This document shows positions 10,298 to 63,380 of a DNA stretch of 64,000 nucleotides, piece by piece. Source of the DNA: Glaciimonas sp. (GTDB lineage: Bacteria; Pseudomonadota; Gammaproteobacteria; Burkholderiales; Burkholderiaceae_D); assembly GCA_012927585.1 (NCBI GenBank), contig JABBOY010000042.1:62001-126000 (forward strand), read 5' to 3'. The position numbers and the translations under genes are program-made. The notes below the pieces were generated by a model. That model had not been told where the DNA came from. It did no database searches and saw nothing but the letters and a program-made list of their open reading frames with translations. How positions within the stretch are numbered: the first letter of the stretch is position 1; each line of letters starts with the position of its first letter.

Positions 10298-10388
10298 CGT
10301 TATATAAAAATGACGGAGTATGCCTATAAATGGCTTATTCTCCGCATGCATTCATTGCAGCATCAAAAAATACGTATTGCAGTATGTT
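10298..10388 (+). repeat. Dispersed intergenic element, copy 1
   Basis: GGAGTATGCCTATAAATGGCTTATTCTCCGCATGCATTCATTGCAGCATCAAAAAATACGTATTGCAGTATG. Confidence 0.8.
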
Positions 10389-10417
10389 AAATTTTTTAGT
10401 TCCTCATATAAATATCC

Positions 10418-12868
10418 ATGCGTAGCGCCATCATCGGCTTTGTGATCGGTATCGTCTGGTTGCAAAACCAGCCGGTGTTGCCGACTTTGACGCTTACGTT
10501 GCTGTTGCTGGCGGCAGCGGTGCTCGGCATGGCGGCTTGCCGTTCGCTGCGACCGGTTTTGCGGCCGGCTTTATTGCTGGCCTGTGGCACCATGTTGGGC
10601 TTCGTCTGGGCGGGATTGCTGGCGCAGCAGCGTTTGGCGCATGCGTTGCCGGACGATTGGGAAGGGCGCGACGTAACGGTGATTGGCACCGTTGACAGCC
10701 TGCCTTACCGCTTCGATCAGGGTGTGCGCTTCAATCTGGCGCTGGAGCAGATGCTGGTGTTGCAGTCGGACGGCAGCACATTGGCGACGCCTGATTTGCC
10801 GCCCAATTTTCCTCCTAAAATCGCTTTGTCCTGGTATTCGATGCCGGCAGCGGATGTGGTGCCGGCAGTCGAGCCCGGTGAGCGCTGGCAACTCACGGTG
10901 CGCCTGAAAAAACCACACGGCAATGCCAATCCCGACGGCTTCGATTATGAAGTCTGGCTGCTGGAGCAGAACCTGCGTGCCACCGGTACTGTGCGCCCGG
11001 ATGCGCAAGCGACGCTGAAGAACCGGCGCTTGTCGGACTTCGTGTTCAGCGTCGGTAATCTGGTCGAATACTGCCGCGCCGGACTGCGCGAGCGCATTTA
11101 TGCCGCCTTGCCCGAGCATGAATATGCCTACGCCGGCGTGATTGTCGCGCTGGTGGTCGGCGACCAGCGCGGGATCGATCAAAGCGACTGGAAAGTATTC
11201 AACCGCAGCGGCATCGGCCACCTGATTTCGATTTCCGGCCTGCATATCACAATGGTGGCCGGCTTGTTTGCTGCGTTGGCGCAATGGCTGTGGCGGCGCT
11301 CATTGTTTACCAGTGCCGAGTTGCCCTTGCTGTTGCCGGCGCAAAAAGTCGCGGCGTTAAGCGGAGTCGTGATTGCGCTGCTGTATGTGCTGCTGGCTGG
11401 TTTCGGGGTGCCGGCGCAGCGTACTTTGTACATGTTGACAGTGGTCGCAGTTGCGCTCTGGTGCGGCCGCTTGACCAGCGTTTCGCATGTACTGTGCACT
11501 GCATTGCTAGTGGTAGTTGTGCTCGACCCCTGGGCCGTGCTGTGGCCCGGATATTGGCTGTCATTCGGCGCGGTGGCGAGCATCCTGTATGCCAGCGTCG
11601 GGCGCGCCCAGCCGCAGCGCCATTTAACTGAGATGCCCGACAGAATGACACGCTGGCGCAGTGCGCTGACATCCGCTGGCCATACCCAATACGTGGTGAC
11701 GCTGGGCCTGGTGCCGCTGACGATGCTGCTGTTTGGTCAAGTGTCGCTGGTCAGCCCGGTAGCCAACGCGGTCGCGATTCCATTGGTCGGTTTGCTGGTG
11801 ACGCCGCTGGCCTTATTGGGCAGCGTGCTGCCGGCACCATTATCGGGCTGGATTTTGGTCGCCGCGCATGCGCTGGTGGCGTGGCTGGCGGACGGTTTGC
11901 AGTGGCTGGCCGGTTTGCCGTGGGCGGTTTGGTCGGCGCCGCTGCCGTCCTGGTGGATTTTTCTGTTCGCTTTGCTGGGAACCGTGTGGTTGCTGGCACC
12001 GCGCGGTTGGCCGCTGCGTTGGCTGGGTTTGGCTGGCTGGTTGCCGCTGCTGCTGAACAGTCCGACCCAACCGCAGCCGGGCCAGATGTGGGTGACGGCT
12101 TTCGATGTCGGCCAGGGCATGGCCTTGCTGATTGAGACCAGGCAACACCGGCTGCTGTACGACACCGGTGCGTACTATTCTCCGCAGTCGAACGGCGGCA
12201 ATCGCGTCATCCTGCCGTACCTGAAGGCGCGCGGTATTGCGACACTGGATGGACTGATCGTGAGCCACAACGACAGCGATCACTCCGGCGGCGCACTGTC
12301 GATTCTGGACGAAATTACGGTCGGCCAGGTCTGGTCTTCGCTGGCGCTGACAAGCCCAATCGTCGCTGCTGCGCCGCGCCATCGGCATTGCGTGGCAGGG
12401 CAATCGTGGCAATGGGATGGCGTCCGGTTCGACATGCTGCATCCGCAAGCTTTGAGCCTGGATAACCCGAAGCAGAAGCCGAATGCGCTCAGTTGCACCC
12501 TGAAAATCAGCACCGGCAGCCTTTCGATCTTGCTGCCGGGCGATATCGAGGCGGCGCAAGAATCCGAGTTGCTGGGCAGTAATCGGGACGCATTGCGTGC
12601 TAATGTACTGCTAGCGCCGCATCACGGCAGCGGCACTTCGTCGACCATCGCCTTCCTGGACGCAGTCCAACCGGATCTGGCATTATTCCAGGTTGGCTAC
12701 CGCAATCGTTATCGGCATCCAAAGTTAGAAATTTTCGAGCGTTATGGCGCAATGGGGATACAGCGCCTGCGCAACGATGCATCCGGCGCAATCACCTTAC
12801 AATTCGATCAGACATTGCGCATTTCCGAATATCGCAGCAGCCATGCCCGCTATTGGTATGGACGCTGA
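10418..12868 (+). CDS. comEC: DNA internalization-related competence protein ComEC/Rec2
   Basis: 816 aa: membrane N-terminus, HLISISGLHITMVAGL, C-terminal MBL domain (VTAFDVGQGMALLIETRQHRLLYDTG, VSHNDSDHSGGA, LLAPHHGS). Confidence 0.95.
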   Translation: MRSAIIGFVIGIVWLQNQPVLPTLTLTLLLLAAAVLGMAACRSLRPVLRPALLLACGTMLGFVWAGLLAQQRLAHALPDDWEGRDVTVIGTVDSLPYRFDQGVRFNLALEQMLVLQSDGSTLATPDLPPNFPPKIALSWYSMPAADVVPAVEPGERWQLTVRLKKPHGNANPDGFDYEVWLLEQNLRATGTVRPDAQATLKNRRLSDFVFSVGNLVEYCRAGLRERIYAALPEHEYAYAGVIVALVVGDQRGIDQSDWKVFNRSGIGHLISISGLHITMVAGLFAALAQWLWRRSLFTSAELPLLLPAQKVAALSGVVIALLYVLLAGFGVPAQRTLYMLTVVAVALWCGRLTSVSHVLCTALLVVVVLDPWAVLWPGYWLSFGAVASILYASVGRAQPQRHLTEMPDRMTRWRSALTSAGHTQYVVTLGLVPLTMLLFGQVSLVSPVANAVAIPLVGLLVTPLALLGSVLPAPLSGWILVAAHALVAWLADGLQWLAGLPWAVWSAPLPSWWIFLFALLGTVWLLAPRGWPLRWLGLAGWLPLLLNSPTQPQPGQMWVTAFDVGQGMALLIETRQHRLLYDTGAYYSPQSNGGNRVILPYLKARGIATLDGLIVSHNDSDHSGGALSILDEITVGQVWSSLALTSPIVAAAPRHRHCVAGQSWQWDGVRFDMLHPQALSLDNPKQKPNALSCTLKISTGSLSILLPGDIEAAQESELLGSNRDALRANVLLAPHHGSGTSSTIAFLDAVQPDLALFQVGYRNRYRHPKLEIFERYGAMGIQRLRNDASGAITLQFDQTLRISEYRSSHARYWYGR

Positions 12869-12987
12869 AACCTTAGGCCCAACTCGTATGGGCAAACGAC
12901 CAAAGCAGAGTATCTTGCGGCCTTTGCAGAGATCATCTCCTACCGTCTGATCCGTGAGTGGTATCCAGGACTAACTGCTGGTTTCGC

Positions 12988-13262
12988 GTAGGCTATTCGA
13001 CGCCGTTCCAAAGGAAAATTTTGTAAAGCTGGCCCGATGGATATCTATTGACCATTCGCATTGAAATGGGTGGCCAGACTTGACGCTTATTAAAAATGGC
13101 CAACTGATGTTTGTTGAGGTTAAGACGACTGACAAATTACATCACAGTCAGCTTGTGACAATTCCTGCACTCATCAAGGAAGCTGGCGCAGATATTTCTG
13201 TGCTCCAATTATCACGCTCTAACAATTCATTCAAGCCGAAGCCGCTTCGCGGCTCGGCTTAA
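12988..13262 (+). pseudogene. VRR-NUC-like domain protein remnant with in-frame TGA at 13062
   Basis: RLFDAVPKENFVKLARWISIDHSH*NGWPDLTLIKNGQLMFVEVKTTDKLHHSQLVTIPALIKEAGADISVLQL; GWPDLTL...FVEVKTTD is the PD-(D/E)XK/VRR-NUC core. Confidence 0.65.
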
Positions 13263-13275
13263 TTCAGGCGTAAGC
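13216..13275 (+). other. Integron attC-like site 1
   Basis: GCTCTAACAATTCATTCAAGCCGAAGCCGCTTCGCGGCTCGGCTTAATTCAGGCGTAAGC. 5' RYYYAAC core, central hairpin GCCGAAGCCGCTTCGCGGCTCGGC, 3' GCGTAAG resembling GCGTTAG with one base lost. About 60 bp. Confidence 0.8.
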
Positions 13276-13323
13276 TCACTCGAAAGTTGAAAATAGCACC
13301 AATTAAGGTATGATTTATATACT

Positions 13324-13587
13324 ATGCATATTTTCGAATTTGACCGATCCAAAAGCGAATCCAACCTCGTAAAGCACAACATCGATTTTATGGATGCACA
13401 GTTGCTTTGGAGTGATCCAATGTTGTTGGAGATTCCGGCAAAAACGGAGGACGAACCTCGGTATCTGGTGATCGGGCTTATCGATGGGAAACATTGGTCA
13501 GCCGTCGTCACCTATAGAGGCGCAAATATTCGACTTATTTCTGTTCGCCGGTCACGATCTGAGGAGGTGGCACTGTATGAAAGCTAA
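13324..13587 (+). CDS. BrnT-family toxin
   Basis: MHIFEFDRSKSESNLVKHNIDFMDAQLLWSDPMLLEIPAKTEDEPRYLVIGLIDGKHWSAVVTYRGANIRLISVRRSRSEEVALYE: BrnT pattern. Confidence 0.85.
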   Translation: MHIFEFDRSKSESNLVKHNIDFMDAQLLWSDPMLLEIPAKTEDEPRYLVIGLIDGKHWSAVVTYRGANIRLISVRRSRSEEVALYES

Positions 13588-13846
13588 AGATTTCGAGCAA
13601 CATTTTGACGAGAGTGTCGACATTACTGGTTCTTTGGATTTATCCAAGGCGAAGCGCGTTTTGCAGCAGCAAAAACGCGTGAATGTCGATTTTCCCACAT
13701 GGATGATTGAGTCGTTAGATCGAGAAGCAAGCAAGCTCGGCGTTACTCGGCAATCCATTATCAAAGTATGGCTGGCTGAGCGCCTTGAAGCGAGCGCTTC
13801 CAACTCTTCGTTCCAACGGATGCGGACCGACGCGGCGCACCGTTGA
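13577..13846 (+). CDS. BrnA/CopG-like antitoxin with C-terminal run-on into an attC-like site
   Basis: Starts inside the end of brnT. DFPTWMIESLDREASKLGVTRQSIIKVWLAERLE is RHH-like; the tail SNSSFQRMRTDAAHR is encoded by attC-like DNA. Confidence 0.8.
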   Translation: MKAKDFEQHFDESVDITGSLDLSKAKRVLQQQKRVNVDFPTWMIESLDREASKLGVTRQSIIKVWLAERLEASASNSSFQRMRTDAAHR

Positions 13847-13872
13847 TTCCGACCTTACTTTGCCCGTTGGAG
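13798..13872 (+). other. Integron attC-like site 2
   Basis: TTCCAAC...CGTTGGAG outer cores, inner CCAACGG/CCGTTGA pairing, placed directly after the TA genes. Confidence 0.5.
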
Positions 13873-14007
13873 AGGTTCGATGGTTCGGGCAGGATGTTGC
13901 CTGAATTCCCTGCTTCGCCCTAAACGGTGACAATATTAACGGCTTGATAGCTCCAATAGTTTCAAATATTTATTGATTTATAAATAATCGCTCAACTGTT
14001 TTCCAGG

Positions 14008-14832
14008 TTGAAACCCCAGACCATGATGCCAAACAAACCATTACTCCATTTCGCCCACGCCAACAGTTATCCGGCCGGCACTTATCACGTATTTTTCCAG
14101 TATCTGCAACAGCATTACCGGGTGCAGGCGCTCGACATGCATGCCCATAATCCGAAATACCCGGTCAAAAACGGCTGGCGCGCGCTGAAACAGGAATTGA
14201 TCGACGATATGGCGGCGCGCTATGCTGAGCCGGTGATCCTGGTCGGTCATTCACTGGGCGGCATGCTCAGTCTGATGGTGGCCAAGGATCGGCCCGATCT
14301 GGTGCGTTGCGTGGTGTTGCTGGATTCGCCGGTGGTAGCGGGGTGGCGCGCATTGCTGTTGCGGGTCGCCAAATCGACTGGCCAGGATTTAAAATTCTCT
14401 CCGGCGCGGCGGTCGATCAAGCGCCGCAATGTATGGCCCGATGCCGACGCCGCATTTGCATATTTCGCTGCCAAGAAGATGTTTGCAATCTGGCCGCCGC
14501 AAGTGTTGCACGATTACCTGGATAGTGGACTGGTGCCGCACCCGAATGGCGTGACACTACGCTTCACGCGTGAAATCGAGACCGCGGTCTATCGCAGCCT
14601 GCCGCATCATCTCGGCAAGATCGTGCAGATGCCGTTTCCGGTGCCGGTCGGGTTTGTCGGCGGCATCGATTCGGTCGAATGCCGGCAAGCCGGTATGGCT
14701 GCAACCCGGCGCCTGGTCGGGCGGCATAGTCGGAAAATTCCAGGTAGTCACCTGTTTCCGATGGAGTCGCCGGCGCTGGCCGCTAGCGCCTTGCACGACA
14801 TGATCCGGTCGCTTGTGCCGTCGCAGGAGTAG
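14008..14832 (+). CDS. Alpha/beta hydrolase
   Basis: LLHFAHANSYPAGTY, ILVGHSLGGMLSLMVA nucleophile elbow. Confidence 0.88.
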   Translation: MKPQTMMPNKPLLHFAHANSYPAGTYHVFFQYLQQHYRVQALDMHAHNPKYPVKNGWRALKQELIDDMAARYAEPVILVGHSLGGMLSLMVAKDRPDLVRCVVLLDSPVVAGWRALLLRVAKSTGQDLKFSPARRSIKRRNVWPDADAAFAYFAAKKMFAIWPPQVLHDYLDSGLVPHPNGVTLRFTREIETAVYRSLPHHLGKIVQMPFPVPVGFVGGIDSVECRQAGMAATRRLVGRHSRKIPGSHLFPMESPALAASALHDMIRSLVPSQE

Positions 14833-14835
14833 GCC

Positions 14836-15795
14836 ATGTTGCGATTTACTGCAAAATTGTTGATTGGCGGTTTGCTGCTGGCGCATGCCATCCTGGTGCG
14901 CGCCGATGTTGTCTCCAACACACAGCCGGATTTCCAGACCGTGATGGCGCAAGGCAAATCCAGCATCGCGCTGGATATTGATAACGATAGCCTGCTGATG
15001 AACCGGAATGACGGTTTTTATAGCAGCGGGGTGCGCCTGACGCAGCAATATGCGTTGGATGTAGCGGGTGTAGCCGGCAGTGCATCGCACTTAGTGACAT
15101 ATGGATGGCGCATCGGCCATGAAATGTATACAGCGTCCGACATCAAGCTACCGCCGGCGCAAGTCAGAGCGCCGGATCATCCGTATGCTGCGTGGCTATA
15201 TGGCGGCCTGTTCCGGGAGAAGCGCCGGGTCGATGGCGCTTACACCAGGCTGGGTTTCGATCTGGGTTGCCTGGGGCCATGTGCAGCCGGCGAATGGGTG
15301 CAAACAAATTTGCACCGTTTGATCAACCAACCGTTGCCGCAGGGCTGGAGCCGCCAGATGAAAAATGAGTTCGGGGCGGTGCTATATGCCGATGTCGCAC
15401 CGGCGCGCTGGTCATTGCAGTCCTGGTTGGATCTGCAGCCCAGCGTGCAGGGGCGTTTTGGTAATATTTTTACCGATGTGACTGCCGCAGTGACGCTGCG
15501 CGCCGGCATCCTGGGCGACTTGCCGGCGGCGCCTACGCAGCATCTGTATCTAAAGCTCGGGGCGCGCGCAGTCGGCCGCGATGCGTCCCTGCAAGGCGGA
15601 TATTTTTCCAAAGACAATTTACATACGGTGCGCCCGCAGCGCCTGGTGGGGCAAGCGGAAGCCGGCCTGCAGTGGGTTCGGCCGCCCTTTGCCTTGCAGG
15701 CCGCAATCGTGCGGCGCAGCAATGAAATTCGCGATTTACCCGCGTCGGATGGCGCGCAAAATTTTGCCCGATTACAACTGGTATATTCGCCCTGA
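14836..15795 (+). CDS. LpxR-like (DUF2219) outer-membrane lipid A deacylase family protein
   Basis: Signal peptide, then DNDSLLMNRNDGFYSSGVRLTQQY, DHPYAAWLYGG, TRLGFDLGCLGPCAAGEWVQTNLHRLI. Confidence 0.82.
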   Translation: MLRFTAKLLIGGLLLAHAILVRADVVSNTQPDFQTVMAQGKSSIALDIDNDSLLMNRNDGFYSSGVRLTQQYALDVAGVAGSASHLVTYGWRIGHEMYTASDIKLPPAQVRAPDHPYAAWLYGGLFREKRRVDGAYTRLGFDLGCLGPCAAGEWVQTNLHRLINQPLPQGWSRQMKNEFGAVLYADVAPARWSLQSWLDLQPSVQGRFGNIFTDVTAAVTLRAGILGDLPAAPTQHLYLKLGARAVGRDASLQGGYFSKDNLHTVRPQRLVGQAEAGLQWVRPPFALQAAIVRRSNEIRDLPASDGAQNFARLQLVYSP

Positions 15796-15867
15796 GTTCC
15801 CTTGAGCATCAACTTAATTTGATGCTTGGAGAGCGGCCAAAATGTACTGGAATATCGGCGCTTATAG

Positions 15868-19802
<3,935 letters not shown>

Positions 19803-21200: not shown

Positions 21201-21208
21201 AGTAATAG

Positions 21209-21300
21209 ATTTATATTTTTTATAAGGAGTATATGCAAAAAACAATGGTTATCCGCATATATCTATTGCATTATTAAAAAATACATTAGCGGGTATATGT
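21209..21300 (+). repeat. Dispersed intergenic element, copy 2
   Basis: GGAGTATATGCAAAAAACAATGGTTATCCGCATATATCTATTGCATTATTAAAAAATACATTAGCGGGTATATG. Confidence 0.8.
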
Positions 21301-23785: not shown

Positions 23786-23872
23786 ATTTTCAATATATTT
23801 GGCAGTATGTATGGATGCCGCTTGTTTTATATGCGGGGAATGCCATATTTATTGGCATACTCATTGTATTGT
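23786..23872 (-). repeat. Dispersed intergenic element, copy 3
   Basis: Reverse complement TGAGTATGCCAATAAATATGGCATTCCCCGCATATAAAACAAGCGGCATCCATACATACTGCC; stem ATGCCA/TGGCAT. Confidence 0.65.
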
Positions 23873-24068
23873 TATGAATGTGCCTGATGCCGCCGGCGTG
23901 GCGGTATAGCTAAGCAGGTATTTTCCTGTCCGGGCTGTGCTGCAATGCAGCAAAATACACTGTAGCATAGGCAATAACGATCCAATGCAATTTCCAATTT
24001 CCAATTCTCAATTCTATTAACCCGTACTTTCGCATCGTTTCGATGCGTCACTAGCCGGAGGAAACAGT

Positions 24069-25097
24069 GTGAAAAGAAAAATCGTGAGTTTTGCCTTGCA
24101 AGGCGGTGGCTCGCACGGAGCCTTTACCTGGGGCGTGCTGGACCGTTTGCTGGAAGACGGCAGGATCGATATTGATGGCATCAGCGGAGCCAGTGCGGGG
24201 GCGATGAATGCAATCGCACTGGCGCATGGCTATACCGTCGGCGGGCGCGACGGCGCACGGCAGGCGCTGCAGGATTTCTGGGATTGCGTGGCCGGCAAGT
24301 CGCCGTTCAGCCTGATGCCGGACGAGGCCACTTCTGCGCTTGATATAGGCACCCAATCGACGCCACTGCCGATCTTCCAGGCGATGCTGTCGATGGCGCG
24401 TTTTTTCTCGCCTTACCAACTCAATCCTTTTGATATCAATCCCTTGCGCGATATTCTGACGGATCAGATCGACTTTGACCGGATCAGGGCCGAATGCAAG
24501 CTCAGGCTGTTTATTGCGGCCACGCATGTCAGCAGCGGGACGCTGAAACTGTTTCGCAACAAGCAGCTCAGCGTGGATGCGCTACTGGCGTCGGCTTGTT
24601 TGCCGACCATCCACCGCGCCGTCGTGATCGACGGCGAATCGTACTGGGATGGCGGCCTGACTGCGAATCCGCCGCTATTCCCTTTGCTGCATCGCTGTTC
24701 TGCACACGATGTGATGGTGATCCTGCTGCATCCCTATCCGCGCCCGGAAATTCCCACCACCGCCGATGAAATCGCACACCGCTTGGCTGAAATGGGTTTC
24801 AGTTCAGCCTTTTTTACCGAGTTGCAAGGCTTGGCGCTCGTCAAGCGGGAGGCGCAGCGTGACTGGCTTTCGTTTGGCCGACTGGAGCGACGCCTGAAAA
24901 AGCTGAATTTGCATTTGATCGATGCCCAGGAAATGATGAGCCAGCTGAATATTCATAGCAAACTTAATGCGCAGCCAGGCTTCATCCACGCGCTGCGCGA
25001 CGAAGGCCGAAGCCGGGCAGAAGCTTGGCTGGCTCAAAATTTCGACAGTATCGGCACCCGTTCGTCGTTTAATCTGGCGCGCCTGCTGCCTACTTGA
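24069..25097 (+). CDS. Patatin-like phospholipase family protein
   Basis: VSFALQGGGSHGAFTWGVLDRLLEDGRIDIDGISGASAGAMNAIALAHG (GXSXG), DGGLTANPPLFPLL. Confidence 0.93.
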   Translation: MKRKIVSFALQGGGSHGAFTWGVLDRLLEDGRIDIDGISGASAGAMNAIALAHGYTVGGRDGARQALQDFWDCVAGKSPFSLMPDEATSALDIGTQSTPLPIFQAMLSMARFFSPYQLNPFDINPLRDILTDQIDFDRIRAECKLRLFIAATHVSSGTLKLFRNKQLSVDALLASACLPTIHRAVVIDGESYWDGGLTANPPLFPLLHRCSAHDVMVILLHPYPRPEIPTTADEIAHRLAEMGFSSAFFTELQGLALVKREAQRDWLSFGRLERRLKKLNLHLIDAQEMMSQLNIHSKLNAQPGFIHALRDEGRSRAEAWLAQNFDSIGTRSSFNLARLLPT

Positions 25098-25257
25098 CTG
25101 ATGCTGCGCACAAAAAATTCGGCCCGCGAAAAACACCAAAGAGACGGAAAAACGTTTCTGCCGCAGTCGACAGGAACGTGTTGCGCCGTCATTCGTGTTT
25201 TTCGTGGGCAATGCTTTTCAAGTCTTGCTTGCCATGTGCGTAGCGTCAGATACTGAA

Positions 25258-30631: not shown

Positions 30632-30728
30632 TTTTAATATAGTGAGGTATGTATTTTTTTTATGTCATTTGTTTATATGCGGAAATAGCATCATTTTTAT
30701 TTATACTCCATTGTATTTAAAATACAAT
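30632..30728 (-). repeat. Dispersed intergenic element, copy 4
   Basis: Reverse complement GGAGTATAAATAAAAATGATGCTATTTCCGCATATAAACAAATGACATAAAAAAAATACATACCTCAC. Confidence 0.65.
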
Positions 30729-38935: not shown

Positions 38936-39040
38936 ATACGGTATTTTTGCTAATCATATACTAATCATGGTATTTTTAACTCCCGCATAATATATATGCG
39001 GAGATAGGCATGTTTTTGCCTATACTCCTATTTAATCAAT
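38936..39040 (-). repeat. Dispersed intergenic element, copy 5
   Basis: Reverse complement GGAGTATAGGCAAAAACATGCCTATCTCCGCATATATATTATGCGGGAGTTAAAAATACCATGATTAGTATATG. Two clear hairpins. Confidence 0.8.
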
Positions 39041-39982
39041 AGTAGATGATGATGTTGCCAGGCGAAACAGCGTGCGGCTTGCCGGTCGGACGCTGATCTT
39101 TGCCCAGCCGGTTCTCAGGCCCAAGCTGCCTATGTTTGCTAGCCAGTTGAGCGCATCCGGTTTTGCTTGCGCGTCGCTGTGCAGCAGCAGTAGCTTGCCG
39201 GGAAATTTTTTTGCCAGCGCGGTGAGTTGCTTGCGCACTTCGATAAAACCATCGCGCCGCCCTGCAAGCTTGGACAGTTTCACCGCATTTGGCACGACCA
39301 TGGGGTTGCCGTCGCAAAACAGCACGATCGCCCGATTTTTTCGCTGTGCCGCATGGATGAAGATCCGCTCCAGCCATTCGTGATTAGCGATTAAACGGTC
39401 TTCAAATTCACTGTTGCGCCCGGCATCCGGCAGGTAGTGGTTGTTGTCGACGGGTAAATTGACGGTTGCAAACAGGACGTTGCCATATTCCCACCGGGCA
39501 TTTTCCGCATAGCTACGGAATTTGGCGCTGCTGGTCTGGCGAATCAGCGGGATGCTGGTGCTGCCAAAAGAAACATCGTCCGAAAAAAACAGTTCGCGTA
39601 CCCGATTCAATTTTTGGATCGCAATCGATTTGCCGTTTTTGGTTTTGCAATCCGCCCAGTCGCTGGCGGCAAGCGATATGATCAACGCGTTTTCAGATCT
39701 GCCGAAGATTTTTCGGCTGCGAGAATACACATTGTCGCTGCAACTCTCGGCGCCGGATTTGATGCCATTGACAACCACGAACGCAAGGTTTTCTGCATTG
39801 CTGGCATTGATTGCTTGCTGCAGCGGGTTTTTATTGGCGTCAAGCTGAAAGGTATGCGCAATCACGCCAAAGTCGAAACTATCCGGTTGTGCCCAGACAT
39901 TGACCGTTGAGGTCAGCAGCAGCCCGGCCAAAAATGGCAATAAAAATAATAATAAAACCGGTCGGTTCATCGCAGCGCGCAT
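39032..39982 (-). CDS. Hypothetical secreted protein
   Basis: Signal-like N-terminus LLLFLLPFLAGLLLTSTVNVWAQ, 316 aa; immediately downstream of mutS. Confidence 0.75.
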   Translation of the reverse strand: MRAAMNRPVLLLFLLPFLAGLLLTSTVNVWAQPDSFDFGVIAHTFQLDANKNPLQQAINASNAENLAFVVVNGIKSGAESCSDNVYSRSRKIFGRSENALIISLAASDWADCKTKNGKSIAIQKLNRVRELFFSDDVSFGSTSIPLIRQTSSAKFRSYAENARWEYGNVLFATVNLPVDNNHYLPDAGRNSEFEDRLIANHEWLERIFIHAAQRKNRAIVLFCDGNPMVVPNAVKLSKLAGRRDGFIEVRKQLTALAKKFPGKLLLLHSDAQAKPDALNWLANIGSLGLRTGWAKISVRPASRTLFRLATSSSTID

Positions 39983-45585: not shown

Positions 45586-46004
45586 CTACAGTCCCACAAC
45601 ATTTGATCGTAACGATCATCTTCTTTCTCTTGATTACGGATGTAGGAACGAACTATTTCTTCATCCAGTCCTACTGTCGAGACAAAGTAGCCTCGCGCCC
45701 AAAATACCAGTAAAATTTCTCTGCCGAACTCCAAAATGCCGTGCTATCGAAATCGCACTTTTCCCCTTGATAAAGCCAACCACGTTTGATATCGAATACT
45801 TTGGCGGCACGCTCAAACACATATGAACATGGTCATTCATGAGATGGCCTTCGACAACCTCGCACTGCCTTTGTGCTGTGCCAACTCCCGAAATATCTCG
45901 CCAAGGTGCTTGCGTAATGCCCCATAAATCATTTTCTTGCGTCGCTTCGGAATAAACACGATGTGATACTTACAGTCCCATCTCGTATGACTACAGTCGG
46001 CCAT
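45586..46004 (-). pseudogene. tnpA: IS200-like transposase TnpA, at least two frameshifts
   Basis: Minus strand: MADCSHTRWDCKYHIVFIPKRRKKMIYGALRKHLGEIFRELAQHKG / CEVVEGHLMNDHVHMCLSVPPKYSISNVVGFIKGKSAISIARHFG / ARGYFVSTVGLDEEIVRSYIRNQEKEDDRYDQMLWD*, in different frames. Confidence 0.88.
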
Positions 46005-54441: not shown

Positions 54442-54486
54442 TAAAAATGCCTGCGCAACTGAATATTGATTGCGCCGGCATTTTTA
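54442..54486. terminator. Intrinsic terminator
   Basis: aaaaatgcctgcgcaactgaatattgattgcgccggcattttt. Confidence 0.88.
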
Positions 54487-54576
54487 TTTTTTATTAAATA
54501 ACGGGAGTATATGAAAAATAATATGCTTTTCCGCATACATATTATGCAGCATTAAAAAATACACGGGGTAGGTATG
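54487..54576 (+). repeat. Dispersed intergenic element, copy 6
   Basis: GGGAGTATATGAAAAATAATATGCTTTTCCGCATACATATTATGCAGCATTAAAAAATACACGGGGTAGGTATG. Confidence 0.8.
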
Positions 54577-54617
54577 AATTGCTTGAAGCGAGACGCCGAT
54601 AGGCGACTCAAAACTGT

Positions 54618-55631
54618 CTACACCCAGCCGCTATCGTGCAATTCCTTCTTGATGTATGCGTAAAACACCGGTGCTGCAACTACGCCGTGCAGGCCGAATA
54701 GCGTTTCCATTACCAGTATTGCACTCAGCAACTCCCACGAGCGGGCATTGACTTGGGCGCCGATGATTCTGGCATTCAAAAAATACTCCATCTTGTGAAT
54801 CAGTATCATGAAGATCAGTGACGCAATCGCCGTATTTAAGCCATGTGACAAGGCCACGATCACGATCACCGAGTTAGACACGATGTTGCCGACCACCGGT
54901 ATCAGGCCGACGATGAAGGTGATGGCAATCATGCTCTTGGTAAATGGCAGATGCACGCCTGCCAGCGGCAACACCACTACCAGATAAAGCGTAGTGAATG
55001 TGGTGTTGATGAGCGAAATGCGGACTTGGGCGAACACTACTTTCTGGAAAATTTCGCGCAAATTGAGCATTCGTTCATGCAGTGCGGCGGCAAATGGCAG
55101 GTAGCTTACATGTGCAGTAGCGTCCTGTAGCGCGACCATGCTGCCGATGATCATGCCGAGCAGCAGATGGACGATGATGCGCCCGGCTTCTTGCCCTAGC
55201 AATTTTGCCTCACCCGCGTGTGCCCGCAGCCAGTCGGTCAAGAGTGTGCGCAAGGCATCGACGCCATCCGGCAAATATTCACGTACCCAGGGCGGGATCT
55301 GATTCCGCGACGCTTCGATAATATCGGCCAGTTTTTGCAGCAAGCTGGAAAGATTGCCGGTATCGCTGCGCATAAACGCAAACATTGCCCAGATCAGGGT
55401 CGACAAGGCCGCCACAATCAACCCGGACAGCAAGGCAACCGCGATCCAGCGCGCCTGGTGGGTGCTGAATTTTTTGGCAATGGTGGGCGCCACCAGATGC
55501 ACCAGAGAATGCACCAGCAAGCCTGAAAACAGCGCCAATAGCAGGCCCGACTTGAGCACCACAAATAACGCCACGGCCATCAGTACGTAAGATGCTGCGA
55601 CCGGCAAAGTGATCTGGCTTGGTTTGTTCAT
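54618..55631 (-). CDS. AI-2E family transporter
   Basis: Multi-TM protein with the PerM/AI-2E-exporter-like pattern ...ITFIVGLIPVVGNIVSNSVIVIVALSHGLNTAIASLIFMILIHKMEYFLNARIIGAQVNARSWELLSAIL. Start corrected to 55631. Confidence 0.85.
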   Translation of the reverse strand: MNKPSQITLPVAASYVLMAVALFVVLKSGLLLALFSGLLVHSLVHLVAPTIAKKFSTHQARWIAVALLSGLIVAALSTLIWAMFAFMRSDTGNLSSLLQKLADIIEASRNQIPPWVREYLPDGVDALRTLLTDWLRAHAGEAKLLGQEAGRIIVHLLLGMIIGSMVALQDATAHVSYLPFAAALHERMLNLREIFQKVVFAQVRISLINTTFTTLYLVVVLPLAGVHLPFTKSMIAITFIVGLIPVVGNIVSNSVIVIVALSHGLNTAIASLIFMILIHKMEYFLNARIIGAQVNARSWELLSAILVMETLFGLHGVVAAPVFYAYIKKELHDSGWV

Positions 55632-55747
55632 GGGAATAGTAAGTGAGAAAGTGAACGTGATTAAGCCACTGCTTATCAATAAATTCAATCGAAATAGGGC
55701 TTAAGCATAGTATCGACGACAAAATGGCGCCGTTAATGTGCCAATTA

Positions 55748-55836
55748 AATATTAAAAAATAAGGAGTATGTTGATAAAGCAATGCATCTTCGCAAATATA
55801 TCTGGGAATTTTAAAAATACAGTAATGGGTATATAA
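55748..55836 (+). repeat. Dispersed intergenic element, copy 7
   Basis: GGAGTATGTTGATAAAGCAATGCATCTTCGCAAATATATCTGGGAATTTTAAAAATACAGTAATGGGTATA. Confidence 0.75.
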
Positions 55837-56205
55837 ATTGTTGCCAGTTGTAAACAATTAAGCCATTTCTCAGTAAGACGGTGCCGCTGGCCCAGGGTTT
55901 CACGCGTCGGCCAGACTTGTTTGCCGATCCGCAGTTCTAGGTCTTCATAATCAGCCTTACAGGCTGATCTCGGATCGCGGTTCAAGGTTCAATGATACAA
56001 AATGCAAGCTATGTTGGCTAACGCACAGAAAGGCATGAATTCTCTGAGTATTATTAGAATCGCAAGGTTCATATCGTATTGCATCGTAACCATCCCTCTC
56101 TAGCCCACTGAACACCACAGCGAGTATCGTCATGCACCTGCTATTAACATCTACCGAATCTTCCGGCTTCCAGCCCCGGCGTTATCGCCTGCTGGGTAGC
56201 TGCGC

Positions 56206-57855
56206 ATGAGTGCCGCAACCAATCCGCTAGCCGGCACATCGGCGTTGCAGTCAATGCTGGTCGATGTGTCGAAGCTGCTCGCCGCTTATGTTGACCTGCG
56301 CCCCGATCCTTCGGTGCCGGCCCAGCGCGTCGCTTTCGGCACTTCCGGTCACCGCGGCAGTTCGTTCGAGCGCAGCTTTAATGAATGGCATGTGCTGGCG
56401 ATCAGCCAGGCGATTTGCGAATACCGCAAAACCAAGGGTATCGATGGCCCGCTGTACATCGGTATGGATACCCATGCGCTGTCGCAGCCGGCTTTCGAGA
56501 GTGCGCTGGAGGTGTTGGCCGCTAACCGGGTTGAAACGATGGTTTCCAAAGGTGGCGAATTCACGCCGACGCCAGCGGTCTCGCATGCGATTCTGGCCTA
56601 CAACCGCGGTCGCACATCGGGGCTGGCCGACGGCATCGTCATCACGCCCTCGCACAACCCGCCCGCCGACGGCGGCTTCAAATATAACCCGCCGAACGGC
56701 GGCCCGGCCGATACCGGCGTTACCGGCTGGATCCAGGCCAGGGCCAACGCTCTGCTCGAAGCCGGCTTGAAAGAAGTGCGCCGCATGCCGCTGGCGCAAG
56801 CGCGCCGCGCTGCTACCACGCATGAGTACGATTTTCTCGAAGCCTACGTTGCCGATCTGGAGAGTGTGCTCGATCTTGAGGTGATTCACGCTTCCGGCAT
56901 TCGCATGGGTGTGGATCCGCTGGGTGGTGCCGGGGTGCATTACTGGGCGCGGATTGCCGAGCGCTACCGGCTCGATCTGAACGTGGTCAGCACGGTAGTC
57001 GACCCGACTTTCAGCTTCATGTCACTGGACTGGGATGGCAAGATTCGCATGGATCCATCTTCGCCGTTCGCGATGCAGCGGTTGATCGGATTGAAGGATC
57101 GCTTTCAGGTCGCGTTTGCCTGCGACACCGATTACGATCGTCATGGCATTGTGACGCCCGCAGCCGGGCTGCTGCCGACCAACCACTACCTGAGCGTTGC
57201 GATCGATTACCTGTTCCGTAATCGCCCGCACTGGAGCCCGCAAGCGGCAGTGGGCAAATCGGTGGTCAGCAGCGCGCTGATCGACCGCGTGACGCAGCGG
57301 CTGGGACGCAAGCTTTACGAGGTCCCAGTCGGCTTCAAATGGTTCGTCGACGGCCTGTGCGACGGTTCACTCGCCTTCGGTTGCGAGGAAAGCGCCGGCG
57401 CAACTTTCAGCCGCATGGACGGCACCGTCTGGACCACCGACAAGGATGGCATCGTGGCGTCGTTGCTGGCGGCGGAAATCAGCGCCAGCACTGGCCGCGA
57501 TATTGGTGAACTGTATCGCGACCTGGTGCGTGATTTGGGCGAGCCGTTCACGGATCGAGTCGAAGCGCCGGCGACTGCCGAGCAAAAAATCCGATTGGCG
57601 AAACTGTCTCCCAGACAGATAGACAGCACCGAGATGGCCGGCGAGAAGATCGAAAGCGTGCTTGATCGTGCACCCGGCAACAACGCGCCGATTGGTGGCA
57701 TCAAGGTGATCACAGCCAGTGGCTGGTTCGCGGCGCGCCCGTCCGGCACTGAGGATATCTACAAGATTTATGCGGAAAGCTTCAAGAGTAAGGCGCACCT
57801 GAAATTGATGGTGCAAGAGGCCCAAAGCATCGTCGATGCAGCGCTCGCGGCGTGA
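56206..57855 (+). CDS. pgm: Phosphoglucomutase (alpha-D-glucose phosphate-specific)
   Basis: VAFGTSGHRGSSFERSFNEWHVLAISQAICEYRK, GIVITPSHNPPADGGFKYNPPNGGPADT, GCEESAGATFSRMDG. Confidence 0.97.
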   Translation: MSAATNPLAGTSALQSMLVDVSKLLAAYVDLRPDPSVPAQRVAFGTSGHRGSSFERSFNEWHVLAISQAICEYRKTKGIDGPLYIGMDTHALSQPAFESALEVLAANRVETMVSKGGEFTPTPAVSHAILAYNRGRTSGLADGIVITPSHNPPADGGFKYNPPNGGPADTGVTGWIQARANALLEAGLKEVRRMPLAQARRAATTHEYDFLEAYVADLESVLDLEVIHASGIRMGVDPLGGAGVHYWARIAERYRLDLNVVSTVVDPTFSFMSLDWDGKIRMDPSSPFAMQRLIGLKDRFQVAFACDTDYDRHGIVTPAAGLLPTNHYLSVAIDYLFRNRPHWSPQAAVGKSVVSSALIDRVTQRLGRKLYEVPVGFKWFVDGLCDGSLAFGCEESAGATFSRMDGTVWTTDKDGIVASLLAAEISASTGRDIGELYRDLVRDLGEPFTDRVEAPATAEQKIRLAKLSPRQIDSTEMAGEKIESVLDRAPGNNAPIGGIKVITASGWFAARPSGTEDIYKIYAESFKSKAHLKLMVQEAQSIVDAALAA

Positions 57856-57878
57856 TGCTGTCGTGCGGCGTTTGACAG

Positions 57879-58472
57879 GTGATCGGAGTGTCTGTGAGTG
57901 AGTCGGCGAGCAATGTTGATGTTGATGTTAATGCGCTAACGGTTTGGACTATCGGCCATTCGACGCGTGCACTGGATGATTTTCTGGCGCTGTTGGCGCA
58001 GTACCGGATTGAGGCGGTGGCAGACGTGCGCAGTTTTCCCGGTTCGCGACGTTATCCGCACTTTGGCCGGCTTGCGCTGCAAGCTAGTTTGCCCCAACAC
58101 CGGCTTGAATATCATTGGCTGCAGGCCCTTGGCGGACGCCGCCGGCCGGTGCCGGACTCCCCCAATACTGCGTGGCGCAATATCAGTTTTCGCAGCTACG
58201 CCGACTACATGCAGACGCCGGAATTCGGCGCAGGTCTGGATCAGTTTCTGGAACTTGCGCGGCGTTTGCGCACAACTCTGATGTGCGCGGAATCCCTGTG
58301 GTGGCGCTGTCACCGCTCCATGATCGCCGATGCTCTGCGTGCCCGCGGCATCAATGTGGTGCATATCCTCGATGCGAAACACAGTACGCTCCATCCTTGG
58401 ACTGCACCGGCGCGTATCGTGGAAGGCAGGCTGACTTACAGTGCGGAGGAAAACGACGCCCCGTTGCTCTGA
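57879..58472 (+). CDS. DUF488 domain protein
   Basis: [39 protein letters not shown]...LMCAESLWWRCHRSMIADAL. Confidence 0.9.
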   Translation: MIGVSVSESASNVDVDVNALTVWTIGHSTRALDDFLALLAQYRIEAVADVRSFPGSRRYPHFGRLALQASLPQHRLEYHWLQALGGRRRPVPDSPNTAWRNISFRSYADYMQTPEFGAGLDQFLELARRLRTTLMCAESLWWRCHRSMIADALRARGINVVHILDAKHSTLHPWTAPARIVEGRLTYSAEENDAPLL

Positions 58473-58554
58473 TGCGGTGTTTGCATTTTCGGCAGAGCGA
58501 TCTGCGGACTGTCTAAATCGACCCAGCGTAGAATACGAATAGCGCACTTCGAAA

Positions 58555-58640
58555 TAGCGTAATACACTATTGGGTATAACAAAAAATACTGCTTTCTCCG
58601 CTTCATATGCGTCGCATATAAAATATACTGGTTAAAATTC
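58555..58640 (+). repeat. Dispersed intergenic element, copy 8 (divergent)
   Basis: AATACACTATTGGGTATAACAAAAAATACTGCTTTCTCCGCTTCATATGCGTCGCATATAAAATATACTGG. Confidence 0.6.
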
Positions 58641-59810
58641 TTACATTTTTGTTAGTCTTTTGGCGATAAAAGCCGGACGCTGTTCCCATAGCAGGCTGGC
58701 TACGAAGACTGCTGCTCCCATCCACAATACAACCACCACCGCATTCACATGGATGCTTTCCATTAAAGCGCCGGTCAGCAGCGGCCCACCGCTGCCCGAG
58801 ACACCCCAGGTGGCGTTGATGATGGCGGTAGCAGCGACCAGTCGTTGGCCGGAAAAGCGTTCGCCGCAGGCTACCAACGAGAGTACATAGATGCCGCCGG
58901 CAGCGCCGCCCAGTACATACAGCAGGGTCCACCACAGCCATGGCAGCATGACAGCAAGTGGCATTAGCGGCAGCAGCAGGCAGGCGGCCAAGCCGCATCC
59001 CATGTGGACGCGAGCGCGGCCGATGCGGTCGGCCAGCCAGCCGAGCGGGAACTGCAAAGTGGTGTTGCCGATCAGCATCACGCTCGCAGACAGCAGCGCC
59101 TGTTCGACCGAGATGCCGTGACGCATGCCGAACAGCGGCAGCAGGCTTAACGCCAACGCATCGAACAGGGCGAAAAAGGCGGTGCCGAGGATGATCACGG
59201 GCATGCGCGGAGCGACGATTTTCCAGTCTGCCTTGGGTTCGTCTTCGATGATGTGGCTGCGATTGGACATCAGCGCCAGGCCCGGAATCGATAGTAGAAA
59301 CAATGCGCCGCAAGCTGCGAATGGCCAGGCAATCCGATCTGAAAGCAGTGCCACCAGAGCCGGGCCGATCAGCTGGAACAAAGTAAAAGTGGTGGCGTAC
59401 AGGGCCACTACCCGCCCGCGTGAGCCATCCGGCGCCAGCTTATTGACCCAGGCTTCGCCCACAGTAAACAGCACGCCTAAGGCGGCACCGAAAATGAAGC
59501 GCAGTACGCTCCAGTAGATCAAGTGGGTGCTGGTTTGCATCAGCATGGTGGACAACGCGGCGACTGCCACCGCACCGATCATGCTGTTGCGCGGCCCCAA
59601 GCGCGCCACCCACCCCGCCACGAATGGCACTATCGCCAGGATGCCGAGTGCGCCCAGGGCTGTCATCAGGCCGACGACATGGTTGCCCAGGCCGCGCTGA
59701 TCGAGCGCTAAAGCAGTCAACGGCAAGGTTGCGCCGAGGCCGAGGCCGACTACGGCCACACTGACGGTGAGCGCCAGAAAATCCCGCCACGGCAGCGTCT
59801 TCATAGCCAT
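58641..59810 (-). CDS. MFS transporter
   Basis: 389-aa multi-TM protein: LGWLADRIGRARVHMGCGLA, SRGRVVALYATTFTLFQLIGPAL. Confidence 0.92.
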   Translation of the reverse strand: MAMKTLPWRDFLALTVSVAVVGLGLGATLPLTALALDQRGLGNHVVGLMTALGALGILAIVPFVAGWVARLGPRNSMIGAVAVAALSTMLMQTSTHLIYWSVLRFIFGAALGVLFTVGEAWVNKLAPDGSRGRVVALYATTFTLFQLIGPALVALLSDRIAWPFAACGALFLLSIPGLALMSNRSHIIEDEPKADWKIVAPRMPVIILGTAFFALFDALALSLLPLFGMRHGISVEQALLSASVMLIGNTTLQFPLGWLADRIGRARVHMGCGLAACLLLPLMPLAVMLPWLWWTLLYVLGGAAGGIYVLSLVACGERFSGQRLVAATAIINATWGVSGSGGPLLTGALMESIHVNAVVVVLWMGAAVFVASLLWEQRPAFIAKRLTKM

Positions 59811-60045
59811 GCCCCGGCCAGGATCAGGTGTGCTGTCAGCATCTTGCGCAAGCGGGCGGCGAAAGGGCCGAGCATGAAAATATCGGTTTGGGCCGGCGTT
59901 GCACCGGGCAAGCCGGCAAATGAAAATTTGATTGTCACGGAGTGTAAAGTGGTTCTATTGATATTGTGAAAGTGGAACTGCTAATTTAGTTCGATCCAGC
60001 TTAAGATAATTTTAACGGGTATTTTTGCATATAGATAGCCGTATG

Positions 60046-60070
60046 AACCGGTTCACAGACCGGTTTTTTA
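60046..60070 (+). terminator. Plus-strand intrinsic terminator upstream of the glutamine-synthetase-like gene
   Basis: AACCGGTTCACAGACCGGTTTTTTA; U-run only on the plus strand, 118 bp before the 60188 ATG. Confidence 0.7.
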
Positions 60071-60187
60071 TGTACATAAAAGCGGATCTAAAAATATAAA
60101 AATATTGCGTTAAATTGGTTTTATGGGTTTTCCCCTAAAATCTAAAAAACCGATTTCTGCCAAGCCGTTCCATACCGGGGAATTCAA

Positions 60188-61525
60188 ATGACACAAACGA
60201 TGCACGCGTTTCTGAAGGATAAGAACATTCACGAGGTGGAATGCGTGATCCCGGACATGACGGGAATCGCGCGCGGCAAGATATTGCCCAGAGACCTGTT
60301 TATCGCAGCAGGAGAAATGCGGTTACCGAAAAGCGTGCTGCTCAATACTGTCAATGGCGAGCAACCGGCCAATGGCCCGTATGTGGGCTCGACCGACCCC
60401 GACATGATTTGCGTGCCGGACCCCGCCAGTATACGGATAGTGCCGTGGGCCGCCGAATCGGTAGCGCTGGTGATTCACGATTGTGAGAACTTCGACGGCA
60501 GTCCGGTCGGATTGTCGCCGCGCGCGGTATTGCGCCGGGTACTGCAGTTATATGCCGAACGCGGCTGGAAGCCGGTGGTGGCACCGGAAATGGAGTTTTA
60601 CCTGGTGGCTCGCAACAGCAATCCGCACGAACCACTGACGCCGCCTTTAGGACGCACCGGCAAGCCGGAGTCGGGGCGTCAATCGTATTCGATCGATGCG
60701 GTGAACGATTTCGATCCGTTTTTTCTGGAGTTGTCGTCCTTTTGCAATACCCATCAATTGGGCGTGGAAACATTGATCCACGAAGCCGGCGCCGGGCAAA
60801 TGGAGATCAATTTTTCGCATGGCGATGCGCTGGAACTGGCGGATCGAGCGTTTCTATTCAAGCGGGCGGTTCGGGAAACGGCGCTTAGGCACGGCATTTT
60901 TGCCACCTTCATGGCCAAGCCGATGGAGCGGGAGCCGGGCAGCGCAATGCATATCCACCAGAGCATCGCCGATGCGCAGACCGGACAAAATGTGTTTTCG
61001 AACCCCGATGGCAGCGCGAGTGCCTTGTTTTTCAGTTATATCGCCGGGTTGGAGACCTATGTGCCGCAGTCGATGCTGATGTTTGCGCCGTATGTGAACT
61101 CGTACCGTCGCCTGTCGCGCTTCATGTCGGCTCCGACCAATGTGCGCTGGGGCTATGACAACCGTACTTGCGGCATCCGAATTCCGAATTCGGGGCCAAA
61201 TAATCGCCGCATCGAGAACCGTGTACCGGGCGTGGATGTCAATCCTTACCTGGCGATGGCGGCCACGCTGGCCTGCGGTTATCTGGGCATGGTGGCGGGG
61301 CTGGCGCCGTCGGCAGCGACCGAAGATAGTGCCGAGCAGGTGGATGACGAACTGCCGCGCAACCTGGAAGACGCAATTGTCTGCATGCGTGCCTGCCAGC
61401 CGTTGGGTGAAATCCTGGGTGAACTCTTCGTCAAGGCATTTTGCGAAGTCAAGGAGCTTGAATTCGCCACCTACAGCCGGGTTATCAGTTCTTGGGAGCG
61501 CGAACATTTGATGCTTCTGGTATGA
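60188..61525 (+). CDS. Glutamine synthetase family protein (gamma-glutamylputrescine synthetase-like)
   Basis: VECVIPDMTGIARGKILPRDLF, PEMEFYLVAR, EAGAGQMEINF, MAKPMEREPGSAMHIHQSI, IENRVPGVDVNPYLAMAATLACG. Confidence 0.92.
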   Translation: MTQTMHAFLKDKNIHEVECVIPDMTGIARGKILPRDLFIAAGEMRLPKSVLLNTVNGEQPANGPYVGSTDPDMICVPDPASIRIVPWAAESVALVIHDCENFDGSPVGLSPRAVLRRVLQLYAERGWKPVVAPEMEFYLVARNSNPHEPLTPPLGRTGKPESGRQSYSIDAVNDFDPFFLELSSFCNTHQLGVETLIHEAGAGQMEINFSHGDALELADRAFLFKRAVRETALRHGIFATFMAKPMEREPGSAMHIHQSIADAQTGQNVFSNPDGSASALFFSYIAGLETYVPQSMLMFAPYVNSYRRLSRFMSAPTNVRWGYDNRTCGIRIPNSGPNNRRIENRVPGVDVNPYLAMAATLACGYLGMVAGLAPSAATEDSAEQVDDELPRNLEDAIVCMRACQPLGEILGELFVKAFCEVKELEFATYSRVISSWEREHLMLLV

Positions 61526-61532
61526 ATTTTTA

Positions 61533-61618
61533 CACGATTAATGCAGGGTATGCCTAAAAATACCTTGCTTGACGCAATATATATGAAAGATTTAAAAAAT
61601 ACAGGATTGGGTATTTTA
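61533..61618 (+). repeat. Dispersed intergenic element, copy 9
   Basis: GGGTATGCCTAAAAATACCTTGCTTGACGCAATATATATGAAAGATTTAAAAAATACAGGATTGGGTATT. Confidence 0.75.
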
Positions 61619-61659
61619 TTATTATCCAGACCGTGAATTTTTGGAGGAGATGAAACCCG

Positions 61660-63069
61660 ATGACAAGTTCAATTATCAAGCACGACTTGGCCGACAATTC
61701 CGTTAAGCAGCTGCTCCGGCGCGGCATTGACTGGGGTCGTGCGCAAGCCTTGCACGAGCGGGAACGTATCGTTTTTAGCGCTGGCAATCCGCGCTCAAAA
61801 GCTTTGGCCGACCGCGCTGCCGCACACCTGCTGTTCGGTGTGCCCTTGCACTGGATGACCGATTGGTCGACGCCGTTTGCGCTGACAGCGCTTGAGGCTA
61901 GCGGTGCGCAGGTAACCGATGCCGATGGTCATCAGTATGTCGATTTCTGCCTCGGCGATACGGGCGCGATGTTCGGCCATGCACCGCAGCCGGTTGCACA
62001 GGCACTGGCGCGGCAGGCCACACTCGGTTACACCACGATGATGCCGTCCGAAGATGCGGTCTGGGTCGCAGAGGAGCTGGCGCGGCGCTTTGGCCTGCCG
62101 GTCTGGCAGTTTGCACTGAGCGCCTCGGACGCCAATCGCTTCGTGCTGCGTTGGCTGCGCGCCGCCAGCGGGCGACCGAAAATCCTGGTGTTCAATGGTT
62201 GTTACCACGGCACGGTGGATGATGTGTTCGTCGATCTGGTCAATGGCAAGCCGCGCCAGCGCGACAGCCTGCTGGGCCAAGTGGTGGATCTGACTGTCAA
62301 TACGCTGGTGGTTGAATTCAATGATCTGGCCGCACTCGATGCGGCGCTGGCTGCCGGCGATGTCGCCTGCGTGCTGGCCGAGCCGGTGATGACCAATATC
62401 GGCATGGTCTTGCCGCAAGACGGCTATTGGGCCGCAGCGCAGCAGATCATGCGCCGCCACGGCACGCTTCTGGTGCTGGATGAAACTCACACCATCAGTT
62501 CTGGGCCGGGCGGTTATGCGCGCCTGCACGGCTTGCAGCCGGATGCGCTGGTGGTCGGTAAGCCGGTTGGTGGCGGCGTGCCGTGCGCGGTGTATGGGTT
62601 TAGTCGAAGTCTGGCAGCGCGGGTTGAGCAGGCCAAGCGGCAGGCGCCGCCAGGTCATTCCGGGGTTGGCACCACATTGACCGCGAACATGCTGACGATG
62701 GCCGCCATGCGCGCCAATCTGGCCGAAGTGATGACCGATGCAGCTTATGCGCAGATGTTGGTGCTGGCTGAACGTCTGGCCCAGGGCTTGCGCAGCGTGA
62801 TTGCAAAACACCGTTTGCCGTGGTGCGTGACGCAAGTCGGCGCGCGTACCGAATTTCAATTTTCAGCGCAACCGCCGGTCGATGGCAGCGCTGCCGAAGT
62901 GATTCTGGATAGCGAGCTGGAGCAGATCATCCATTTATTCCTGCTCAATCGCGGCATGCTGATCACGCCGTTTCACAACATGATGTTGGTGTGTTCGCAC
63001 ACGCCGGTACAGGACATTGATCGTTTTTTGTCGGTATTCGACGATTGTCTGCAACAACTTGCCGGTTAA
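61660..63069 (+). CDS. Class III aminotransferase
   Basis: YVDFCLGDTGAMFGHAPQPVAQAL, NGCYHGTVDDVFV, LLVLDETHTISSGPGGYARLHGLQPDALVVGKPVGGGVPCAVYGFS. Confidence 0.92.
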   Translation: MTSSIIKHDLADNSVKQLLRRGIDWGRAQALHERERIVFSAGNPRSKALADRAAAHLLFGVPLHWMTDWSTPFALTALEASGAQVTDADGHQYVDFCLGDTGAMFGHAPQPVAQALARQATLGYTTMMPSEDAVWVAEELARRFGLPVWQFALSASDANRFVLRWLRAASGRPKILVFNGCYHGTVDDVFVDLVNGKPRQRDSLLGQVVDLTVNTLVVEFNDLAALDAALAAGDVACVLAEPVMTNIGMVLPQDGYWAAAQQIMRRHGTLLVLDETHTISSGPGGYARLHGLQPDALVVGKPVGGGVPCAVYGFSRSLAARVEQAKRQAPPGHSGVGTTLTANMLTMAAMRANLAEVMTDAAYAQMLVLAERLAQGLRSVIAKHRLPWCVTQVGARTEFQFSAQPPVDGSAAEVILDSELEQIIHLFLLNRGMLITPFHNMMLVCSHTPVQDIDRFLSVFDDCLQQLAG

Positions 63070-63292
63070 ATGACGTTACGCATTTTCTACAGCAGGCATG
63101 CAAAATGCAAACAAAAATCAGGATCAACATTTGATCGGGATTGCAAAAGCCAATGCTGACTGCCGATTGAATAATTCCTTTCATTTTGTAGCAAGTCAGA
63201 TCGCATTGAATAGCTATCGCCCGGTCTTCCACCAGTGGGAGCGCGCTGGAGAGTGGAAATGTAAGCAGTCGTTGCTTGGCCGGTTGCCGAGT

Positions 63293-63380
63293 AAATTTTT
63301 AATAGTTAAGGAGTATGACTATTTTTATGATAGTTTCCGCATATTTTTATTGCAGTAATAAAATATACCAATAGCAGTAC
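63293..63380 (+). repeat. Dispersed intergenic element, copy 10
   Basis: GGAGTATGACTATTTTTATGATAGTTTCCGCATATTTTTATTGCAGTAATAAAATATACCAATAGCAGTAC; stem ACTAT/ATAGT. Confidence 0.75.

Follow-up and report, generated by a model that had tools for sequence, protein, structure and literature searches.

A dispersed, multi-box intergenic DNA element in Glaciimonas and related genera, a candidate chromosome-organising site

Current models divide bacterial chromosomes into supercoiling domains of roughly 10 kb, for which fixed DNA boundary elements are generally not known. Among dispersed chromosomal sequences, matS and parS are single short palindromes found only in a macrodomain or the origin region, while Correia/NEMIS, ERIC and RUP/BOX, which are of the miniature inverted-repeat transposable element (MITE) type, either end in inverted repeats or occur as similar copies. 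Repetitive extragenic palindromic (REP) elements carry a GTAG- or CGTC-tagged GC-rich palindrome (PMC3733652), and REPINs depend on RAYT for their replication and cluster around a master sequence (PMC8049555). In E. coli, BIME-2 binds gyrase and has a documented role in DNA topology, and gyrase prefers long sites of ~130 bp with phased A/T content (PMC6379681). Here we describe an intergenic element of ~85 bp (about 85-100 bp as a whole site) that occurs ten times in a 64,000-nucleotide stretch of Glaciimonas sp. DNA (contig JABBOY010000042.1, positions 62,001 to 126,000), called the window below. We tentatively propose, as a serious possibility short of a probable one, that each copy is a site of about 85-100 bp at which a predicted chromosome-organising nucleoprotein complex would bind double-stranded DNA.

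The ten intergenic copies listed in a preliminary description of the window are real, as a profile built from them recovered 10/10 (E 1e-19 to 4e-13), found no eleventh copy in the whole window, and agreed to within about 10 bp with the starts first given for plus-strand copies. The family is also in excess genome-wide, with at least 151 matches to the ten-copy profile in the own genome (G000; 4.17 Mb, 42 contigs) and, using a 135-copy profile on ~2.4 Mb of genus DNA plus named loci, 281 matches compared to 0 in the reversed-sequence control. Contigs sampled independently of matches contained 88 copies in 796 kb, a density of ~0.11 per kb that corresponds to about 460 copies per genome, or ~1 per 9 kb, and the element recurs at this density in 4/4 sampled genomes of the genus (g1; Oxalobacteraceae, Burkholderiales). 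Besides G000, these are G001, G002 and G003, tentatively named Herminiimonas sp. CN, Glaciimonas sp. KJC.1 and an Oxalobacteraceae metagenome-assembled genome (MAG), respectively; several of the assemblies compared are MAGs or drafts. Across the family, matches were detected in 16/295 genomes and 3/44 genera, namely g1 and, in diverged form, g32 and g65, and an order-level survey of 399 genomes gave matches in g1 and g32 only. The g32 copy lists are incomplete, as they rest on the best 150 candidates scored. No match was found in the phage, plasmid and viral-contig sequences searched, and the family is not described in the open-access literature searched.

The consensus of the 88 copies reads A/T block - N4 - GGRGTAT - N4 - A/T block (AAAAA) - N6 - TTT - MCGCAT - A/T - TGCG - A/T block (WAAAAATAC) - N7 - AGTAT - A/T block, so that A/T-only blocks separate spaced DNA boxes (GGRGTAT, the MCGCAT/TGCG dyad, ATAC and GTAT). 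GTAT, CGCA, ATAC and GTAT are nearly invariant in aligned copies, and GTAT and WWWAC lie 46-47 nt apart in 234/245 copies. Copy 1, which lies between tatD and comEC (10299..10387, plus strand, 66.1 bits with cmsearch), illustrates this arrangement on the plus strand. Box 1 is GGAGTAT (10315..10321), in which GTA is invariant and GTAT nearly so among 86 aligned copies, and which is kept across genera; it is followed by the central dyad CCGCATGCATTCATTGCAG (10342..10360; consensus MCGCAT...TGCG, varying in sequence between genera), then by the near-invariant box 2, ATAC, or GTAT on the opposite strand, with an A/T block before it (10370..10373), and finally by the near-invariant box 3, GTAT (10382..10385). 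The GTAT, ATAC and GTAT boxes of g32 and g65 are identical to those of g1. The central dyad differs between genera yet stays a dyad in many copies, as CCGCA/TGCGG in g1, TTGCGCA/TGCGCAA in genome G317 and CCCC/GGGG in genome G114. The anatomy first described, a hairpin core between direct repeats, broadly stands, and the direct-repeat edges are real in the form of A/T blocks plus GTAT boxes; the first stem is not the conserved dyad, which is instead the central CCGCA...TGCGG.

Copies within the own genome are not young, with a mean paralog identity of 57%, a maximum of 84.5% (between two neighbouring copies) and no young paralogs, and they are held in place. Orthologues were retained in 42/43 cases from G000 to G002 and in 18/19 from G000 to G003, about 95% of copies are common to species 16% diverged, and orthologous pairs have the same relative orientation in 69/69 cases. 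Substitution affected 2.6% of conserved compared to 17.4% of variable columns between G000 and G002 (42 pairs), 4.7% compared to 44.8% between G000 and G003 (20 pairs), and 3.2% compared to 46.2% between G002 and G003. Conserved columns at orthologous copies change 7-10 times more slowly than variable ones. Even change across all columns would be expected of a neutral relic, so each copy is under purifying selection in place. The A/T columns have a signature of their own, in that A<->T swaps outnumber transitions (102 vs 57), the reverse of the pattern in variable columns (transitions 158 vs A<->T 76). In these columns it is the duplex's A/T content that is selected, an indication of DNA and not RNA.

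Spacing along the chromosome provides a second line of evidence. In g1, compared with a null in which the same number of sites was spread over the actual intergenic gaps, with weights for gap type, copies are more evenly spaced than chance (coefficient of variation 0.656 vs 0.943 ± 0.060, p<=0.001 pooled; <=0.001 for G000, <=0.001 for G002 and 0.02 for G003). The ratio of observed to expected pairs is 0.19 at <1 kb, 0.38 at 1-2 kb, 0.62, 0.54 and 0.75 through 2-5 kb and ~1 beyond, which shows that copies repel one another within ~5 kb; other repeat families were too rare to serve as spacing controls. Measured against nulls that were uniform rather than gap-based, short-range exclusion recurs in 3/4 tested genomes of g32. 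In G109, 1 neighbour distance falls below 5 kb where 8.9 are expected and 1 below 7.5 kb where 12.8 are expected (p 0.0005), with ten at 7.5-10 kb, and distances <5 kb number 9 vs 21.6 expected in G178 (p 0.0005) and 9 vs 16.3 expected in G088 (p 0.017). Some twelve g32 loci have a gene neighbourhood traceable in g1, and at only one or two of these is the element at the same place. As positions mostly differ between genera, it is the spacing and not the location that persists; positions turn over while the distance rule mostly endures. Selection on each copy and non-random spacing (the latter with the exception of G317), as would be expected of an element of chromosome architecture, are thus both found.

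The strongest competing explanation is an old transposon with target immunity, the recognition sites of which acquired a use later on. On this account, which we judge unlikely, the copies are relics of a MITE- or transposon-end-like element with several transposase boxes that spread under target immunity and were later partly kept, and the even spacing is a record of the immunity radius. Copying must have happened, as positions differ between genera, and the exclusion below ~5 kb fits such a history, as does the resemblance of the boxes to multi-site transposon ends, which carry multiple repeated boxes. Target immunity explains the exclusion but not, alone, the selection on each copy, given that neutral relics mutate evenly and the conserved columns here do not. 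There are also no young copies, the two element ends do not look like inverted repeats of each other, no target-site duplication was seen (although the empty sites have diverged too far for one to be recognised), no Y1/RAYT association was found, and copies are depleted in recent islands. Segments found in G000 but not in G002, or the reverse, contain 6 copies in ~133 kb, or 0.045/kb vs 0.11 overall, a density ~2.4 times below the overall one in a count without one unsampled 100-kb stretch.

The MITE/REPIN-like reading offered in the preliminary description did not hold up, as we found no near-identical copies, purifying selection in place and no association with Y1/RAYT genes. Neither the groups of similar recent copies nor the neutral decay after insertion that mark MITEs were observed, and there was neither a GTAG- or CGTC-tagged GC-rich palindrome nor a repeat-flanked RAYT gene of the kind that defines REP/REPIN-RAYT systems. 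Mobilisation by RAYT was considered and rejected, in that only 2/20 Y1_Tnp loci from six genomes clearly had an element by the g1 profile, where the g1 density predicts ~7; beyond these, one g65 Y1_Tnp locus gave a marginal match to the g32 profile. Separately, the window holds a fragmented Y1 (IS200/REP-type) transposase frame on the minus strand (45718-45983, equal to G000:C36:107718-107983), and the own genome has about ten Y1 transposase matches, several with stop codons.

With genes called by a simple hexamer open reading frame caller, 0/~257 context-checked copies overlapped a called gene by >30 bp, and the earlier observation that the element occurs only between genes was thereby borne out. 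So was its occurrence in both orientations and all gene contexts: tandem gaps hold 78 sense and 71 antisense copies, which amounts to no orientation bias with respect to genes, convergent gaps hold 73 and divergent gaps 34. Copies occupy 29% of convergent, 14% of divergent and 10% of tandem gaps and lie at a median distance of 38 bp from the flanking stop and 124 bp from the flanking start, favouring convergent gaps and gene 3' ends. Apart from gene context, elements have the G-rich (leading) strand orientation in 60% of cases (156/262, p 0.0024), a weak replication-direction bias obtained from G000, G002 and G003 with related genomes pooled.

This placement bears on the possibility that the copies are operator sites of a transcription regulator with a huge regulon, which we consider very unlikely. 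Fixed box spacing and selection would be expected of operators, but there is no preference for the divergent gaps, which bear promoters, elements are nearer to stops than to starts, positions change between genera and the spacing is even. It bears likewise on a DNA uptake signal for natural transformation, kept by uptake bias. The genome carries comEC, and some known uptake signals pair a core with phased A/T blocks and show a spacing more regular than expected by chance, but an element ~85 bp long, at ~1 per 9 kb, never in genes and restricted to a few genera leaves this explanation only a slight chance.

Structured RNA in untranslated regions, acting as a stability, processing or termination element, is a further explanation that we regard as distinctly improbable. 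In its favour, many copies lie near stop codons, at the median of 38 bp, and the central dyad is accompanied by weak arm matching; arm swaps between copies changed hairpin energy by a small amount (in the g1 sets, z ranged from -2.1 to -3.2 at the central dyad and from -1.4 to -2.5 at the first stem, with weaker signals in g32), and a strict dyad subset showed flanking-base pairing slightly above expectation. The first stem, which differs in sequence but keeps pairing, had originally been read as suggesting selected structure, and a covariation check had been called for. RNAalifold on the ten copies gave no consensus pair and mutual information over 88 copies gave no pairing columns in the first stem, so that claim does not hold up beyond the weak arm-matching signal. 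Covarying pairs and a match to a catalogued family, by which a structured RNA family would be recognised, were both lacking, the latter in searches of Rfam 15 at the gathering threshold and at E<=0.5. Further against an RNA, A and T interchange freely in the A/T blocks, sense and antisense copies are equally common with no gene-strand preference, divergent gaps are occupied, and some copies adjoin ordinary terminators. An intrinsic terminator was rejected as a candidate, since the dyad is followed by an A block with no gene-oriented U-run, at 78 sense vs 71 antisense copies.

Box conservation, selection, a property of double-stranded DNA and spacing together support the remaining option of the preliminary description, a protein-binding site, with binding itself as a prediction. 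The three GTAT boxes, in forward, reverse and forward orientation, would be recognised by a putative protein with sequence specificity. The A/T-only blocks would allow bending or wrapping of the DNA, and recognition of the central dyad, variable between genera, would fall to that protein or to a partner. Roughly 460 of these complexes, ~9 kb apart between genes and mostly at gene 3' ends, might then mark or anchor the boundaries of loops or supercoiling domains or, alternatively, absorb transcription-driven supercoils. The leading versions would be the anchoring of loops or supercoil domains, or a relief of supercoils of the gyrase type, known in E. coli from BIME-2 and from long phased gyrase sites (PMC6379681); gene-end and convergent placement as well as the A/T blocks are consistent with a site of the gyrase/BIME-2 type.

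Several points weigh against the proposal of a chromosome-organising site. The spacing is quasi-regular, not periodic, and G000, G002 and G003 share ancestry, so their spacing tests are not independent. G317, of g32, is without short-range exclusion (10 vs 7.3 expected <5 kb). Many g32 copies are without box 1, as seen in G317, G178, G088 and G109; this sub-population is large, and the remainder of the element, starting at the first A block, is retained in it. The exclusion could be a target-immunity footprint from the time of insertion, and both the binder and the chromosome-scale function of the element are predictions from sequence.

A more far-reaching version of the proposal, which we hold to be possible but rather doubtful, is that of a sequence-encoded chromosome ruler, in which hundreds of selected multi-box sites with a minimum distance of about 5-8 kb would bound ~9-kb loops or supercoiling domains and be kept by spacing and not by position across genera. 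If true, several hundred selected sites with mutual exclusion at the ~10-kb scale would make the question of domain boundaries directly testable, and an intergenic repeat family could be functional infrastructure and not just a mobile or decaying element.

The individual copies of the window, all matched by the ten-copy profile, have varied surroundings. Copy 1 has an orthologue in all four genus genomes and none in other genera (ortholog/empty-site comparison), and the tatD-comEC gap is a few bases in several other genera compared to ~115 bp, including the element, in g1. In G002, a REP-like palindrome, GTAGGAGCGCATCCGGGCGCG, is inserted beside this copy (~9740-9850 of locus L046, just upstream, before comEC). 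Copy 2 (21210..21298, plus strand) contains a G002 synteny break, located at window 21241-21273, with the halves on different contigs, each beside unrelated DNA. A site-specific recombination site was rejected here: the halves are joined to unrelated DNA and not to another element, which makes this a breakpoint and not a crossover between copies. On the minus strand are copy 3 (23793..23880; orthologues in G001, G002 and G003), copy 4 (30637..30726; orthologue in G002) and copy 5 (38956..39044; orthologue in G002), the first 13 bp of which lie within the end of the upstream gene. The plus-strand copies that follow are copy 6 (54486..54571), directly 3' of an intrinsic-terminator-like hairpin, copy 7 (55745..55834), copy 8 (58556..58637), with the lowest score of the ten at 45.2 bits, copy 9 (61527..61614), which by gene context begins 1 bp past a stop codon, and copy 10 (63293..63379).

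Other features of the window include a CRISPR array (3260-4916, plus strand) with 23 repeats of 37 bp, all Rfam CRISPR-DR9 with equal scores, and a separate short repeat at ~25097-25220, unrelated to the element, which has many genome-wide matches at 71-90% identity. Directly 3' of comEC, ~1.15 kb (12871-14026) is absent from G002 and is possibly an insertion-sequence remnant, since a 57-bp piece of it (~13218-13275) is repeated at other places in the genome with 89-98% identity.

Compared with the systems introduced at the outset, the element resembles Correia/NEMIS, ERIC and RUP/BOX in being intergenic, ~100 bp and dispersed, but neither terminal inverted repeats nor similar copies are seen in it. 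With REP/BIME it shares an intergenic location and many copies; it differs from them in consisting of single ~85-bp A/T-rich units with fixed GTAT boxes, even spacing, per-copy selection and no RAYT association. REPIN-RAYT populations (PMC8049555) are likewise long-lived repeat populations within a genome, whereas the paralogs here are 57% identical, with no master class and with variable sites that differ freely. Unlike matS and parS, the element is multi-box and occurs in every large stretch sampled, but with them it would have in common dispersed selected sites and a chromosome-scale role, for which a dedicated binder is predicted.

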